Below the pieces are notes generated by a model. It searched no databases and had not been told where the DNA came from. It was given only the letters and a program-made list of their open reading frames with translations. DNA of 47,676 nucleotides. It comes from Candidatus Velthaea versatilis (GTDB lineage Bacteria > Vulcanimicrobiota > Vulcanimicrobiia > Vulcanimicrobiales > Vulcanimicrobiaceae). Position 1 is the stretch's first letter. Each line of letters begins with the position of its first letter. The stretch lies in contig PLAE01000229.1 in assembly GCA_003134035.1 (NCBI GenBank), positions 1-47,676 on the forward strand. Reading direction: 5' to 3'. This document shows positions 39,925 to 46,726 of this stretch, one piece after another. The position numbers were made by a program, and so were the translations under genes.

Positions 39925-40683
39925 TCAGTGCCGTTCGACGGTGCGGCGCAATTTCGTTTGCGGAACCTGCTCTAGATCCGCTAATCCGTCGGCCGCAATC
40001 GCGCGCTCGGCGGCATCGCCCGAGGCCATAGCGATGCGAAAGGTCGCGGCGGCGGTACGGCTGCGGCACGAGGTAAGTCCGATCAGCGCGGCTTGACGGT
40101 GAGCGGGCTTGGACTCCTCTTCGTACGCCTGAGCGAGCAGGGGAACGCACCAGTCTTTGGCGATGACGCCCAAATCGCCGATGAGGCGCAGCCGCGCGGT
40201 CTCGTCGAGCACTCCGGAGCGCGGATCGAACTGCTGGCACCAGCGAATCTCGGCCGGACCGGTAACCGCCGCCGGCTCGAGGTCCAAATCGAAAAGCGGC
40301 GGCGATGCCGCCGCCGCGGGCACCCCCGCGTCCGGTTCGGCGGCCTGGGAAACGGCCGGCGCGGGACGCGACGGAGTTGGGCGCGAGAAATCGGGACGGG
40401 ACTGAACGGGACGCGTACTCTCGGGACGCGTACTCTCGGGACGCGCCGGCGTCCCCCGCGACGAATCGGATCGCGGCGCTACCGGCCGCGGCGGTACGGG
40501 CCGCGGCGGGGCCGCGCGCGGAGTCGCCGGCGGAGCGTCGGCCAGCGGCTTAACCTTGAGCCCGGGCGGGGCGACGGTTATGAGGCGCTGCGGCGGGCGC
40601 TTCCGTTTCGAGGCGTAAAACAAGTACCCCGTTGCCGCCGCCGCGATGAGCACGACGATGGCCAGAATGTCCACGACGTCCAT
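39925..40683 (-). CDS. Membrane-anchored Pro-rich protein with HEAT-like helical repeats
   Basis: A 252-residue protein. One N-terminal helix (VDILAIVVLIAAAATGYLFY), a basic stop-transfer (ASKRKRPPQR), then about 100 residues of Pro/Arg/Ser/Thr-rich linker, including a short tandem repeat (RPEST type). The C-terminal 100 residues (TARLRLIGDLGVIAKDWCVP; LLAQAYEEESKPAHRQAALI; RTAAATFRIAMASGDAAERA) look like HEAT-type helical hairpins. The orientation should put the helical part in the cytoplasm. It follows the DUF11 giant almost directly (40687 to 40683), so both are surely co-transcribed. No known family. Confidence 0.75.
   Translation of the reverse strand: MDVVDILAIVVLIAAAATGYLFYASKRKRPPQRLITVAPPGLKVKPLADAPPATPRAAPPRPVPPRPVAPRSDSSRGTPARPESTRPESTRPVQSRPDFSRPTPSRPAPAVSQAAEPDAGVPAAAASPPLFDLDLEPAAVTGPAEIRWCQQFDPRSGVLDETARLRLIGDLGVIAKDWCVPLLAQAYEEESKPAHRQAALIGLTSCRSRTAAATFRIAMASGDAAERAIAADGLADLEQVPQTKLRRTVERH
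40408..40445 (-). repeat. Short 15-bp tandem repeat in the Pro-rich linker
   Basis: GGGACGCGTACTCTC (plus-strand reading) occurs at 40408-40422 and 40423-40437, then the first 8 bases again. On the coding strand it specifies repeating Arg-Pro-Glu-Ser-Thr units in the linker of the membrane-anchored protein. Confidence 0.8.
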
Positions 40684-40686
40684 TCG

Positions 40687-43600
40687 CTAGTTTAGCACGC
40701 GCTGTTGTTCGGCTAAAGTACGGACCATTGATTCACGTCCTTCGTCTAGGAGCGGATCGACCGGTTCGCGCAGCGATGCCTCGAAGGCACCGGGGTCGAG
40801 ACTCGTCCGCTGCCCCAGCTCGTGCACGAGGGCATTGCGGTAATCGGCAAAATCGCTAACCACTCCGCCGTCGCGCTCCAGGCTCGTGCCCATGAGCATG
40901 GCCATGACTTGCCACGCGCTGGCGGTGGCGATCTCGTCCCGGCCCAGTTTCTCGGTGGCCGCGGCCAGGGTCGGGCCGTCGAGCGTTTCCGCCAAGCGCA
41001 GCCCCGAGCGCAGCGAAGCCCGTTCGGTGTTGCCGACGGCCAGCTCTTCGACGAGCGCGACGAGGCTCGTGCGCAGTTCGGGCGTTTCGACGTCGGCGGG
41101 TGCGAGGGGGAAATCCGGCAGCCGGACTTTGATGAACAGCCGATCGGCCAGTTCGGCCAACATCTCGCGATGGCTGCGCAGCCGCGCGCGCAGGAGCCGA
41201 TCCGCACCGCCGACCCGATCGGGGAACAACGCGCGCACCGTGAGCAGATGCGAAACGATGCCGCCGACGCGCGTTTGTTCGAGATACTGAACCACCCACG
41301 ACAGATGCTCGTCGGACAGCTCGAGAAACACCGTGGTCTGGGCGGCCGCGGCCGGCTCAAAGGCGACGCTGCCGCCTGCGAGCTGCGGATACTCGATGGT
41401 CGGTATCGAATCGGAATCGGCGACGATTTTCGCGCCGCTGCTCGTATTGCCGCCGCCCGCGGAGCCGCCACCACCGCCGTTGAGCCGGACGGGGAGCGCC
41501 GGGCGCAATTCGACGTACGCGGGCTGGAAGTTACCGATCTCGGTGCGGGTGGTAACCGTGGTCTGGCGGACCGGCGCCGCGATGGCCCCGAGGACGGAGA
41601 ACGGCAGTTCGGGCTCGATGATCGGCAAGGCCGACGTCGAGCGCACCCGTACCACCGGCGCGACGACCGACATTTCGGGCGCTTCATCCCAATTCACGGT
41701 AGCGCCGGTTTCGATCGGGGTCGCCGGCGGCAGCGGCATATTCACGATCACGCGCCAGCGCGCGATCACCTCGACTCCCGCGCCCACGTTGGCTAGCGTT
41801 AAGCCGGCTTCGCTCAGCAGCGGCGACGTACCGGCGAAGTCTTGCAGCGCGATGCCGTTGACGGTCGTGCTGCCCGGCGCATAGACCGCGTCCTGGAGAA
41901 GCGCGACGCGCGCCGTGAGCCGCTTCGCCGATCCGTCGCCGCAATTGCGCAGCGACAGCGTGTAGGCGATTTCCGCACCCGCATCGACGCTTTCGGCCGG
42001 CGACGACGACAACGTCGCGCCTTCGGCGAACGAGGCTTCGGCGTGCGTCGCGAGTTCGATCGTGTTGAGCGCGAACGGCACGACGTTGAGGCCGCCGACG
42101 CGCGCCGAGATGGCGAGCAGTTCGGCGCCGGATACAACGCCGACGAGCCGGATGGCGAGCGTTGCTTCGCGCGTTTCACCGGCCGGGATCTCGCCGAAGA
42201 CCACGACGTTGCCGTCGCGCGTCGCTTCGTCCACGCGCTCGAGCCGCAATTCGTCGGGCAATTGCAGCGACACGCGCACATCGCGGCCGCGATCCGTGCC
42301 CTCATTGGCCAGGATGAGTTTGCAGGTGCTCAGCCGATTGGGCCGCAGCGCTTCGTCGCTGTCGACCTCGATATGCGACGTGATCGCCGAGAAGCGCGGC
42401 CGCGAACTGACGACGTGAACGGGTGAGCCGAGCTCGATGCGCGGGACTTGGAGGGTGAGCAACGTCGCGTGCAGCCGCAGCTGCGTTTGATCCTCGATAA
42501 CCGGCGCCACGTGGGCTTCGACCCGCAGCAGCCGCGAGACGCCCGGTTCGAGCGTGTCGAGCGCGATCGTTCCCGCCTCATCGCCGATCGGAAGTTCCGT
42601 GTCGCGGTCGTAGACGCGCAGGTGCTCGAGACCCTCGTCGGCGGTTAGCTGCAGACGCACTTCCGTTGCGACGTCGGCACCCATGTTTTGCAGCGAGATC
42701 GTGTATCCGACCGCGTCGTTCGGCCCGACTCGGCGCGACGTTTCGCGTTCGATCTTGTTGAAGTTCGCCGGAAAGTGCGGCGCCGAGCGCGCGACGAGCA
42801 TCCGCTCAAATTTGCGCTGGCCCTTGGACCACGCGACCGTGCCGCTGAGGTTAAGTTCGTGCCCGTCGGAAATCGGCGCGAAGACGACCGCCGACAGAGC
42901 GAGTTCGACCGAGCGTCCCGGTTCGAGATCGCCCAGCTTCACCGCATCGGGGACGGTGGTGCGGTCGGGCACCGGCGCGCCGTCGACCGCCATTGACCCG
43001 GGCGTGTAGATCATGCCGTCGGGTAACGCGATGCGCAAGCTAAGCTTGCGCGCGCGGGCCGTCCCGACGTTCTTCGTGTGCAGGATCACCCGCACGCGCT
43101 GACCCGGTTCGACTTCGTCCTCGGATTCGACGCGCAGTGAGGTCTCATCGCTGCTGAACGCCGCAGCCGACGGAATCTTGACCGTGACCGGCGCGAGCGC
43201 GAACTCGGCCACTTCTTGCGAGCAGATCGCGCCGTTCGCGACGACCGCGGTCGAATCTTCGAGCGGTGCGTCGATGCGAACGCGATAGCCGACGTCGAGC
43301 GTCGCGCCCGGGCCGAGCATCGGCGCGACGACGACCGGCCGAGCGAAGCCGAACGGTTCACTTTCGGCGCCGGCGGAGACCGATCGGCCTTCGACCGTCA
43401 CGCTTTGCGGTGAGAACGTGGTGTTGGCGGGAACCGGCAGCAGCACGACGAGATCGTGCGCGCTGCTCTGGCCGGAATTATGGACGCGCGCGTTGAGTTG
43501 CAGTTCCTCCCCGGGCAGCGCTTCGCGCACCGGTACGAGCGTCAGCGTCGTCTTCGGATTCTGCAGCACCGGACGGCTGCGCACGACGAGCCGGACGATG

Positions 43601-44013
43601 TTCGAGCCGATGACCGGCACGTCGAACGACGCGATCGCGGCTTGCAGCGTAACCGGCGTTCCGTTTTCGATCGTCGTCGCAACCGTGTAGGCCAGCGATA
43701 CCCGGCGTTCGCCGCCGGCCGGGATCTCGCCGATGTCGGCGCCCGACGTTTGGAGCAGCGTGGTTAAACCGCCCTGCTCGTCGAGGAGCGCGTCGTCGAT
43801 GCGCGCCGTGCCGACGAGGTACGTCAGGCCCTCGGGCAACCGGAAACGCACCCGGAACCCGCTCGCGATGCCGCCGCCCAGATTCCGAAACGTGAACGAC
43901 GCGTGCACGGTCATGCCCGGCTCGATCATCCGGCTGGGGCTGACCTCCAAGGTCCGAAGCCCCTCGGGCAACAGCGGGCCGCGGGAGGCAAAAACCTCAG
44001 ATAGCGTGCGCAT
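40687..44013 (-). CDS. Giant DUF11-repeat protein lacking a signal peptide
   Basis: A 1108-residue protein. Residues about 20-860 hold six or so DUF11-type beta domains, each with a pattern like VHASFTFRNLGGGIASGFRV ... LPEGLTYLVGTARIDDAL ... EIPAGGERRVSLAYTVAT. A Gly-rich spacer (near NGGGGGSAGGGNTSSG) leads to a C-terminal helical domain of about 200 residues (LELSDEHLSWVVQYLEQTRV; RLRSHREMLAELADRLFIKV). DUF11 proteins are normally secreted adhesins, yet the start (MRTLSEVFASRGPLLPEGLR) has no signal peptide or membrane helix, so this one appears cytoplasmic. It is co-transcribed with the membrane-anchored helical-repeat protein. Function unknown. Confidence 0.9.
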   Translation of the reverse strand: MRTLSEVFASRGPLLPEGLRTLEVSPSRMIEPGMTVHASFTFRNLGGGIASGFRVRFRLPEGLTYLVGTARIDDALLDEQGGLTTLLQTSGADIGEIPAGGERRVSLAYTVATTIENGTPVTLQAAIASFDVPVIGSNIVRLVVRSRPVLQNPKTTLTLVPVREALPGEELQLNARVHNSGQSSAHDLVVLLPVPANTTFSPQSVTVEGRSVSAGAESEPFGFARPVVVAPMLGPGATLDVGYRVRIDAPLEDSTAVVANGAICSQEVAEFALAPVTVKIPSAAAFSSDETSLRVESEDEVEPGQRVRVILHTKNVGTARARKLSLRIALPDGMIYTPGSMAVDGAPVPDRTTVPDAVKLGDLEPGRSVELALSAVVFAPISDGHELNLSGTVAWSKGQRKFERMLVARSAPHFPANFNKIERETSRRVGPNDAVGYTISLQNMGADVATEVRLQLTADEGLEHLRVYDRDTELPIGDEAGTIALDTLEPGVSRLLRVEAHVAPVIEDQTQLRLHATLLTLQVPRIELGSPVHVVSSRPRFSAITSHIEVDSDEALRPNRLSTCKLILANEGTDRGRDVRVSLQLPDELRLERVDEATRDGNVVVFGEIPAGETREATLAIRLVGVVSGAELLAISARVGGLNVVPFALNTIELATHAEASFAEGATLSSSPAESVDAGAEIAYTLSLRNCGDGSAKRLTARVALLQDAVYAPGSTTVNGIALQDFAGTSPLLSEAGLTLANVGAGVEVIARWRVIVNMPLPPATPIETGATVNWDEAPEMSVVAPVVRVRSTSALPIIEPELPFSVLGAIAAPVRQTTVTTRTEIGNFQPAYVELRPALPVRLNGGGGGSAGGGNTSSGAKIVADSDSIPTIEYPQLAGGSVAFEPAAAAQTTVFLELSDEHLSWVVQYLEQTRVGGIVSHLLTVRALFPDRVGGADRLLRARLRSHREMLAELADRLFIKVRLPDFPLAPADVETPELRTSLVALVEELAVGNTERASLRSGLRLAETLDGPTLAAATEKLGRDEIATASAWQVMAMLMGTSLERDGGVVSDFADYRNALVHELGQRTSLDPGAFEASLREPVDPLLDEGRESMVRTLAEQQRVLN

Positions 44014-44063
44014 AAGCCCTGATTCGATGCACGAGGAGATTCTCCGACGAAGGCAAGCGCGGG

Positions 44064-44381
44064 TTACACCTTGCCGCGGCTCGCCGCCGCACGAACTTCC
44101 GGGATGAAATGCTCGGCGCGCAGCACCGCGATGTCGGAAATAAGCACGATGTTGGCTCGGTCGTTGAGCGAGGGCAAGATCGCCTCGATGATCGCGTCGA
44201 GATGATCCTCGGTCACGATCGTGACGAGCATGACCATGTCCCGCTCGCGATACCCGTGCTGACCGAGCCCCGTCGCACCGGGCACCAGCGTGTAGCCCGT
44301 CGCATGACCTTCGACGATCTTAATCAACCCGTCGACGAGCGCCGATTCGACGACGATCTCGACGCGTTTCATCCTGCTCAT
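44064..44381 (-). CDS. PII-superfamily regulator-like protein
   Basis: A 105-residue GlnB-like protein. The fold is clear: MKRVEIVVESALVDGLIKIV, EGHATGYTLVPGATGLGQHG, MLVTIVTEDHLDAIIEAILP, then NIVLISDIAVLRAEHFIPEV. The T-loop region (GATGLGQHGYRERD) lacks the uridylylated Tyr of enteric GlnB, and the C terminus is a short helix. PII-like proteins sense nucleotides, 2-oxoglutarate or bicarbonate and control a partner, often a transporter. ATG 44381 gives the normal length. It precedes the DUF11 gene by 50 bp on the same strand, so it may be the first gene of that operon. Confidence 0.85.
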   Translation of the reverse strand: MSRMKRVEIVVESALVDGLIKIVEGHATGYTLVPGATGLGQHGYRERDMVMLVTIVTEDHLDAIIEAILPSLNDRANIVLISDIAVLRAEHFIPEVRAAASRGKV

Positions 44382-44525: not shown

Positions 44526-45203
44526 ATGGCCGACACATCGATGGAGGTGCTCATCGTCGACGACGAGCGTCCGATGCGAGATTTTCTCGAAATCGGCTTG
44601 ACCCAAGCCGGTTTCCGCACGCGCAGCGCCGCCGACGGGCCGGCGGCGCTTAGTGAGTTGAGCGCGCGCGTGCCCAACCTCGTCGTGCTCGACTACATGC
44701 TCCCCAAGATCGACGGGATCGCCCTCCTCCCGCTGATTCGGCGGGCTACCGAAGTGCCGATCCTCATGCTTTCGGCCAAGCACGACGTGGCCGCCCGAGT
44801 CGCCGGGCTCGAGGCGGGCGCCGACGATTATCTGGCCAAGCCGTTCGAGTTCGTCGAACTCGTGGCGCGCGTCCAAACACTCCTGCGCCGGCCGAACCTC
44901 GCCCGCGTCAGCACGCTGCGCTTTCTGGATATCGAAATGGATCTCGAAAAGCGGCTGGTCTGGCGCGACGGCGAGAACGTTCCGCTGTCATCGCGCGAAT
45001 TCGATCTGCTCGCGGTGCTGCTGCGCTATCCCGAGCGCGTTTTCACCCGTCAGCAATTGCTCGACCGGGTTTGGGGCACGGACCGCGACGTGTTGCCGGG
45101 CTCGGTCGAAACCTACATCAGCTATTTGCGCGCCAAACTCGACCGCGGCCCACAGCGCCGCGTGATCCGCACCATCCGCGGAGTCGGTTACAGCGTTCGA
45201 TGA
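44526..45203 (+). CDS. OmpR-family response regulator
   Basis: A 225-residue regulator. The receiver has Asp12-Asp13, phospho-acceptor Asp56 (VVLDYMLP), Ser83 and Lys105 (YLAKPF). The winged-helix output domain occupies about 130-225 (LEKRLVWRDGENVPLSSREF; DLLAVLLRYPERVFTRQQLL; WGTDRDVLPGSVETYISYLR; IRTIRGVGYSVR). ATG 44526 starts at the first conserved strand. Its TGA overlaps the ATG of the histidine kinase (ATGA), a classic coupled pair. It diverges from the PII-like gene across a nested palindrome and might control it. Confidence 0.95.
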   Translation: MADTSMEVLIVDDERPMRDFLEIGLTQAGFRTRSAADGPAALSELSARVPNLVVLDYMLPKIDGIALLPLIRRATEVPILMLSAKHDVAARVAGLEAGADDYLAKPFEFVELVARVQTLLRRPNLARVSTLRFLDIEMDLEKRLVWRDGENVPLSSREFDLLAVLLRYPERVFTRQQLLDRVWGTDRDVLPGSVETYISYLRAKLDRGPQRRVIRTIRGVGYSVR

Positions 45204-46726
45204 AAAGCCGCGCCGCCGTCGTGGCGATCGTGGCGTTCGTGCTCATCGCGGTGGCGTGCGCCGTCCTCACGGTCCGGATGACGGCGAACGCGATCGACGC
45301 GACGGCGGCCGTGCAGGCCGCCGAAGCTCCAGAAATCGCGCGGCTCTATCTCGCGAAATACGGCTCGCTCGCAAAGGCGGCGCCGTCGATCGTGCAACGC
45401 GTTTCGCGCGCGGGCTTGCGCGTTTGGCTGTACGATCGCAAGACCGGAACGTCCTACGGCGCGCGCGGCGCGCTGGGCGATTTCCGCCCCCTGCATGGCC
45501 CCGATCCGCCGCCCGCGATAGCGGACGGCGATCACGCCTTCGGAGCGCCGGGCGACCCGGGCGCGGCCGGGGGACCGCGCGTCGCGGGCGGTCCCCCGCC
45601 GGGCGGCTTCGACGGCGGCCCACTCGGCGCGAACGAAACGCACCGCCAAGATTGGTTGGCGATCTTCGTCGCGGCCTCGGCGGGCGAACGACCCCGTCGC
45701 GTGCGCATCCCGAACGGCTCGATCACGATTTTTCCGCAACCCGGCCCGATCGTCGCGGTGCTCGAAACGGTCTGCCTGGTCCTCGGGATCGTCATGCTTT
45801 GCAGCGGAACCGCGCTCTGGATGTGCGTGCGCGGTGTCCGCCGGGCCGCGCTGCGGCCGCTCCACGAAACGACGCTGGCCCTGCAACGCCTTGCGCTGCG
45901 CGACTTTTCGCCGCGCACGATTCTGGCCGGCGAGGGGAGCGCGTACGACGAACTCGCGCGCGCGTACAACGCGGCGGTCGAGGCCGTGTCGTCGTCGTTC
46001 GAGGAGCGGCGCGCGGCGGAACTCGAGATGCAGCGCTTCATCGCCGACGCCGGGCATGAACTTCGCACGCCGCTCACGATCGTGATGGGCTACCTCGACA
46101 TCATCGCCGGCGGCGCGCTTGCCGATCCCAAGCTCGCCGACCGGATCACCACCGGAATGCGCACCGAAGCGGCGCGGATGCGCAAGCTCATCGATAAGTT
46201 GATCATCCTCGCGCGGATGGAAACGCCGAACGATCTCGACGCGCGCATCAACATCGACGTCGTCTCGCTCGTGCAACGGGTTATCGAAAGCCTCGAACCG
46301 TTGGCGAACCAGCCGATCGAGGTGACCGGCGTTTCGTTCGCGCACGTATTCGCGGCCGAGGACGATCTGGCCGAGGCGCTCACCAACATCGTCGAAAATG
46401 GTTTGAAGTACGCGCCGTCGTCGTCGATCGAGATCGACATCCGATCCGCCGCCGACCGCATCTCGATCGCGATCCGCGACCACGGTCCGGGGATGACGAC
46501 CGACGAGCAGCGCCATGCCTTCGAGCGCTTTTACCGTGGCGACCAGCGCGGCGAAATCAGCGGGTCGGGATTGGGTTTGGCGATCGCCAAGCGCGCAATT
46601 GAACGCTCGCGCGGTACGATTCGGCTCGAGAGCATTCCGGGACGCGGGACGACCTTCACGATCGAACTTCCCGAGATGCCGATCGCCGTCGAGGACTCGC
46701 GCCGGGCGCGACTCGCCCGCCGTTAG
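45200..46726 (+). CDS. Membrane sensor histidine kinase
   Basis: A 508-residue kinase. Helix 1 is at residues 5-27, helix 2 at about 184-211. The periplasmic sensor between them has a Gly/Pro/Asp-rich low-complexity loop (about 96-146, PGDPGAAGGPRVAGGPPPGG). A HAMP-like segment follows, then His286 (FIADAGHELRTPLTIVMGYL), the N-box TNIVENGLKYAP, G1 RDHGPGMTTDE and G2 GSGLGLAIAKRA. It phosphorylates the regulator encoded just upstream; the signal is unknown. ATG 45200 overlaps the regulator stop by four bases. Confidence 0.95.
   Translation: MKSRAAVVAIVAFVLIAVACAVLTVRMTANAIDATAAVQAAEAPEIARLYLAKYGSLAKAAPSIVQRVSRAGLRVWLYDRKTGTSYGARGALGDFRPLHGPDPPPAIADGDHAFGAPGDPGAAGGPRVAGGPPPGGFDGGPLGANETHRQDWLAIFVAASAGERPRRVRIPNGSITIFPQPGPIVAVLETVCLVLGIVMLCSGTALWMCVRGVRRAALRPLHETTLALQRLALRDFSPRTILAGEGSAYDELARAYNAAVEAVSSSFEERRAAELEMQRFIADAGHELRTPLTIVMGYLDIIAGGALADPKLADRITTGMRTEAARMRKLIDKLIILARMETPNDLDARINIDVVSLVQRVIESLEPLANQPIEVTGVSFAHVFAAEDDLAEALTNIVENGLKYAPSSSIEIDIRSAADRISIAIRDHGPGMTTDEQRHAFERFYRGDQRGEISGSGLGLAIAKRAIERSRGTIRLESIPGRGTTFTIELPEMPIAVEDSRRARLARR

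Follow-up and report, generated by a model that had tools for sequence, protein, structure and literature searches.

A DUF11 array protein and a predicted inner-membrane HEAT-like partner form a two-gene cassette in the order Vulcanimicrobiales

Analysis of the window (the whole stretch of DNA studied, 47,676 nucleotides) and of related loci from Candidatus Eremiobacterota / Vulcanimicrobiota points to a two-gene cassette whose products probably (about two chances in three) form a single complex. A cytoplasmic array of Ig-like domains would be docked through its C-terminal domain (CTD) to an inner-membrane partner made of a membrane helix and HEAT-like repeats (TM-HEAT partner), and would have a structural role as scaffold or spacer. 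At the level of sequence, the analysis establishes the architecture of the proteins, the absence of an export signal, the near-obligate pairing of CTD and partner, the two types of natural fusion and the predicted topology. A preliminary description of this DNA had already suggested that the HEAT protein tethers a DUF11 scaffold inside the cell to the membrane, and the comparison supports that part of its proposal, the pair being conserved, fused in two different ways and, in the genomes inspected, absent together.

Architecture of the array protein and of its partner

The cassette and its upstream neighbour are encoded at the following positions, all on the minus strand:

44064-44381 (-): PII-like protein, 105 aa (Pfam P-II, E 1.8e-11), 50 bp upstream of the DUF11 gene
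40687..44013 (-): DUF11 array protein, 1108 aa (Pfam DUF11, NCBIfam TIGR01451, homologues across the order)
43948..44013 (-): N-terminal tail, residues 1-22 (MRTLSEVFASRGPLLPEGLRTL) (alignment of 23, low pLDDT)
41629..43971 (-): six Ig-like DUF11 domains in tandem, spanning about residues 15-795 (AlphaFold2 strands and pLDDT)
41344..41628 (-): disordered linker, residues 796-890 (pLDDT 31-41)
40690..41340 (-): CTD, residues 892-1108, mixed alpha/beta (model, Pfam and PDB searches)
40684..40686 (-): 3-nt gap from the DUF11 stop to the partner start (gene coordinates)
39925..40683 (-): TM-HEAT partner, 252 aa (membrane helix at about residues 3-25, then a linker of Pro, Arg and Ser and a C-terminal part that is HEAT-like)

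The calls and lengths given beforehand for the 1108-aa, 252-aa and PII-like genes were all correct. The 1108-aa protein is a member of PF01345, scoring 81.1 bits (E 9.5e-23) against a curated cut-off of 24.6, and it also matches NCBIfam TIGR01451 (E 9.2e-23). Its open frame contains no ATG, GTG or TTG upstream of M1, which opens a conserved segment (MRTLxEVFAPGxPTLPEGLRTL) common to most A-type homologues in the alignment and is very likely the true start. Because this start is conserved and no start codon precedes it, no signal peptide appears to have been overlooked. The N-terminal 50 residues of 54 homologues were likewise devoid of any TM-grade stretch (best value 1.31 on the 19-residue Kyte-Doolittle scale). 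The earlier observation of a protein with neither signal peptide nor membrane helix therefore stands; a missed start or signal peptide, which the preliminary description had named as one finding that would count against its reading, was looked for and rejected on the open frame, the conserved N-terminus and the hydrophobicity scan. The tail formed by residues 1-22 combines strong conservation (alignment of 23) with low predicted order (AlphaFold2 pLDDT), and is a candidate motif for binding an additional partner.

An AlphaFold2 model of the window protein, built with 54 homologues (mean pLDDT 84), resolved six tandem beta domains at about residues 20-792, in agreement with the previous estimate of about six DUF11-type domains, then a disordered stretch (795-890) and a compact CTD (892-1107, pLDDT about 95). 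The latter had been described as helical: a distinct C-terminal domain is indeed present, its predicted fold being mixed alpha/beta rather than purely helical. Searches with the CTD returned no Pfam family above threshold, no PDB sequence relative and no fold match at E <= 0.001, although the fold query was a multi-domain model in which a distant match could be hidden. Assignment to a known fold was consequently dropped, and the CTD is regarded as a new domain with no Pfam or confident PDB match. An internal duplication is not claimed either, hhalign of the two halves reaching a probability of only 12%. Most mre-linked DUF11 proteins of genus g9 (L139-L142) have their array separated from the CTD by a longer linker; the apparent 1864-aa frame of L139 is partly a read-through over an antisense aminotransferase gene.

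The partner had been described as a protein with one membrane helix, a Pro/Arg/Ser linker and a HEAT-like part, and this description holds with a weak HEAT_2 (PF13646) assignment (E 0.0038 in the window, below the curated cut-off). Of the 59 rows scanned, 25 matched HEAT_2 at E <= 0.05 (best 1.6e-5), relatives scoring better than the window protein, and helical pairs are seen in the AlphaFold2 model of a fused relative. The 3-nt gap agrees with the earlier statement that the DUF11 stop lies within four bases of the partner start; in relatives this junction is often a 4-nt overlap, and the two genes are likely to be translationally coupled. Membrane topology can be read from the Lys/Arg bias by the positive-inside rule. 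Lys and Arg are more frequent after the helix than before it in 36 of 36 partners, from which an N-out/C-in topology with a cytoplasmic HEAT domain is predicted for all of them.

Distribution, pairing and natural fusions

Homologues were retrieved by an alignment scan of genome contigs, a single-protein scan having given none. The DUF11 family was found in 76 of the 103 genomes of the order Vulcanimicrobiales and the cassette was found only in that order (76/103 versus 0/46 in the rest of the phylum); the CTD profile matched 77 of the 149 genomes of the phylum, all within the order. The few matches in other phyla are weak and cover DUF11 domains partially. Both CTD and partner are present in 73 genomes, with four genomes carrying the CTD alone and four the partner alone (Fisher P 1.2e-14, a value that ignores kinship, which inflates such statistics). 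A same-strand partner match follows 110 of 132 CTD matches, with a median of 14.5 nt between match ends, and the other 22 include 10 fusions and several contig ends. Among 42 full-length A-type loci the partner is separate in 33, fused in 8 and cut off by a contig end in 1; nine of 11 B-type copies are followed by a partner. The preliminary description had allowed that its system would be in doubt if most DUF11 homologues occurred without the neighbouring genes, which proved to be so for the PII-like gene and not for the partner.

One clade carries a duplicated cassette in the order A, partner, B, partner. Sister family f2, L086 and L139 have a longer HEAT region in complete form, of which A-partners retain the second half and B-partners the first, a division that suggests subfunctionalisation. 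In f2 (L032, L033, L036) the DUF11 pair has as neighbours a flagellin gene and the gene of a large repeat protein. A third, very divergent DUF11 and CTD type with its own TM-HEAT partner (L040:4954-7797 and L041:6127-8826, minus strand) adjoins tig-clpP-clpX and a priA-like helicase gene. No PADLOC model matched, and an anti-phage defence system was rejected on that ground.

The cassette is also lost as a unit. DUF11 and partner are both gone in G035 and G003, where the PBP2 gene abuts the aminotransferase gene, and G076 retains fragments of the DUF11 gene beside an intact partner. Within genus g36 the cassette is absent from G035, G061, G064-G070 and G073, present in G062, G063, G071, G072, G074, G075 and G077, and a relic in G076. 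It must therefore be dispensable, and this genus offers a natural comparison set for studying its function.

Two types of natural fusion bear on the contact between the proteins. In ten species of genus g25 the reading frame of the partner continues into a CTD. There the DUF11-B gene downstream no longer encodes a DUF11 array, and its remaining CTD is joined to the TM-HEAT protein. Pairwise omega values of 0.15-0.27 indicate purifying selection, so these fused genes look functional, and the one sequence that was folded gave an AlphaFold2 mean pLDDT of 86.6. A CTD-HEAT contact within the fused protein would fit this arrangement. As evidence of contact the fusion is nevertheless weakened, because a single deletion in an A-partner-B array could produce it. 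The second type is the other DUF11 copy of the window genome (contig C254, L043:6833-9994, minus strand), known from this one genome and with a putative start codon. It is 68% identical to the window DUF11 protein over the aligned part, stops just before the CTD position and has no detected partner. At its N-terminus a membrane helix precedes RRPRPSRR and a linker of Pro, Ala and Ser. When this segment was compared with 36 partners, the window partner was the best match (score 76, the next of the other 35 reaching 48), a score attained in 0 of 2000 block shuffles. The Lys/Arg bias after the helix is the same as in partners and places the array on the predicted cytoplasmic side. This copy lacks CTD and HEAT domain and has its array joined directly to an anchor, so both fusions fit a role of CTD and HEAT domain as the connector between array and anchor. 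The N-out/C-in topology predicted for partner and second copy alike would place the HEAT domain as well as the array in the cytoplasm.

In the mechanism that we favour, the rod of six Ig-like DUF11 domains would stay in the cytoplasm, where the CTD, carried on its flexible linker, would dock onto the HEAT-like domain exposed on the cytoplasmic side by the small inner-membrane protein. Such docking would hold the array on the inner membrane, probably as a scaffold or spacer on its inner face.

Genomic context and alternative readings

The cassette is flanked in most genomes by an aminotransferase gene on one side and by the convergent PBP2-MreD-MreC-Maf-NadD-Obg genes on the other, in a conserved layout (PBP2 -> <- partner <- DUF11) that is convergent and not operonic. 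This neighbourhood hints, speculatively, at a link to cell-wall synthesis or cell shape. A stronger version of such a link, in which the complex would be an elongasome component that regulates or scaffolds MreC, MreD and PBP2 and partly replaces the lost mre-linked MreB in the clade with tandem DUF11 genes, is considered unlikely. It draws on the layout itself, on the position of DUF11 within 7 kb of MreC in 50 of the 52 genomes in which both lie on one contig, and on the scarcity of mre-linked MreB where DUF11 sits at the mre locus (missing in 58 DUF11-positive genomes, present in 13). The clade of Vulcanimicrobiales without the mreC-adjacent MreB paralogue is large and keeps mreC, mreD and PBP2. 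The convergent genes are, however, not co-transcribed, and conservation is just as high on the other flank (aminotransferase, TrpRS, ThiD/E, ParAB); for these two reasons the proximity to mre may be synteny inertia. The loss of mre-linked MreB was probably a single event, for which reason the correlation is not used as proof, and a second MreB is still encoded elsewhere in nearly all genomes. Moreover, some genomes (G035) lack both cassette genes, and the window copy falls in a clade of its own kind (11 rows, SH-aLRT 100), made up of copies situated away from the mre locus.

Somewhat less probable still is a cytoskeleton-like layer or ruler, in which cytoplasmic Ig arrays would line the inner membrane next to the machinery of cell-wall elongation and the A/B duplication, each copy with its own anchor, would have accompanied the loss of mre-linked MreB. 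Vulcanimicrobium, the one cultured member of the order, has rod-shaped or filamentous cells as long as 92 um (PMC9758169).

Improbable, in our estimation, is export of the DUF11 protein by an unrecognised route to form a surface stalk, with the partner as an export or assembly factor. This alternative gains from the fact that other known DUF11 domains come from surface proteins, which led to the family being renamed in 2025 after 'extracellular region' (PMC12617251). CLIPPER/DUF11 stalks have isopeptide chemistry (Lys-Asp-Asn), some DUF11 domains lacking the bond (PMC12617251). Against it stand the lack of a signal peptide in 54 homologues, the predicted N-out/C-in topology of the partner and the predicted cytoplasmic array of the C254 copy. 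In addition, no alignment column over residues 1-800 of 54 homologues holds Lys at 50% or more, so the array has no isopeptide triad.

A three-gene system under PII-like control, as proposed in the preliminary description, is very improbable, since the adjacency (50 bp, same strand, as originally reported) was seen in the window genome alone and the PII-like gene occurs in only 4 of 60 relatives. Outside the window genome the best DUF11 match (57%) came from G008, a closed genome of 3.5 Mb with PII-like genes at 0.93 and 2.67 Mb and DUF11 at 2.04 Mb, over 0.6 Mb apart. Other PII-like copies follow the dabB-dabA inorganic-carbon transporter genes (G016, L161) or have genes for an AMP-binding enzyme and a KaiC-like protein nearby (one of the G008 copies, L159). 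The closest PDB relatives of the PII-like protein are 5d4n and 5d4l (E 1.5e-4), structures of the bicarbonate-responsive CPII protein. On the strength of the dabB-dabA neighbours in G016 and of these relatives, the gene more likely belongs to inorganic-carbon regulation; by genome comparison it is a bystander outside the conserved cassette. The same three-gene order was sought in the other genomes and not seen, the DUF11-partner order being the one that is kept, and the VOC gene, earlier suggested as a possible part of the transcript, is not conserved downstream of related copies. Both PII control and the VOC gene were rejected as parts of the system. A divergent response regulator and histidine kinase pair adjoins the PII-like gene (window 44526-46726, plus strand) and was not seen with the cassette elsewhere.

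Relation to known systems

Most of one bacterial order appears to use DUF11 intracellularly, together with a membrane anchor dedicated to it and a putative docking domain not described before. Should the mre link prove functional, the complex would represent a new class of morphogenetic scaffold; the closed genome of the cultured member of the order probably carries the pair, which makes localisation and shape tests possible in principle. A literature search found no paper joining Eremiobacterota and DUF11. The DUF11 domain is already known, and the cassette appears new in kind, as no named system of such architecture was found in the libraries and literature searched.

The PII-like neighbour shares the P-II fold of 5d4n and 5d4l and differs from the cassette genes in lying outside the conserved unit. 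Like HEAT_2 proteins the partner appears to have short helical repeats, and unlike them it has a single N-terminal membrane helix and a linker; the window protein scores below the curated cut-off of the family.

Ciliary central-apparatus proteins are cytoplasmic Ig-like (ASH) arrays acting as scaffolds. They provide the best fold matches of the array (7som_D, E 1.6e-23), ahead of complement proteins and integrins, and generic Ig resemblance accounts for much of this match. The window array, also predicted to be cytoplasmic, resembles these ASH/MSP arrays (HYDIN/CFAP type; 7som, 9ijj) as an architectural analogy only, given that the latter are eukaryotic axonemal scaffolds and that TM-scores are low with no sequence relation.

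The closest relatives by family are the fibrillar adhesin stalks of the DUF11/CLIPPER type (PF01345), with which the window protein shares its length and a tandem series of E-set, Ig-like domains belonging to the DUF11 family. Unlike these adhesins, it has no signal peptide and no conserved isopeptide Lys, and Pfam and NCBIfam scans detected no adhesion or cell-wall sorting domain in it; what it has instead is a new CTD and a membrane partner predicted to face the cytoplasm.
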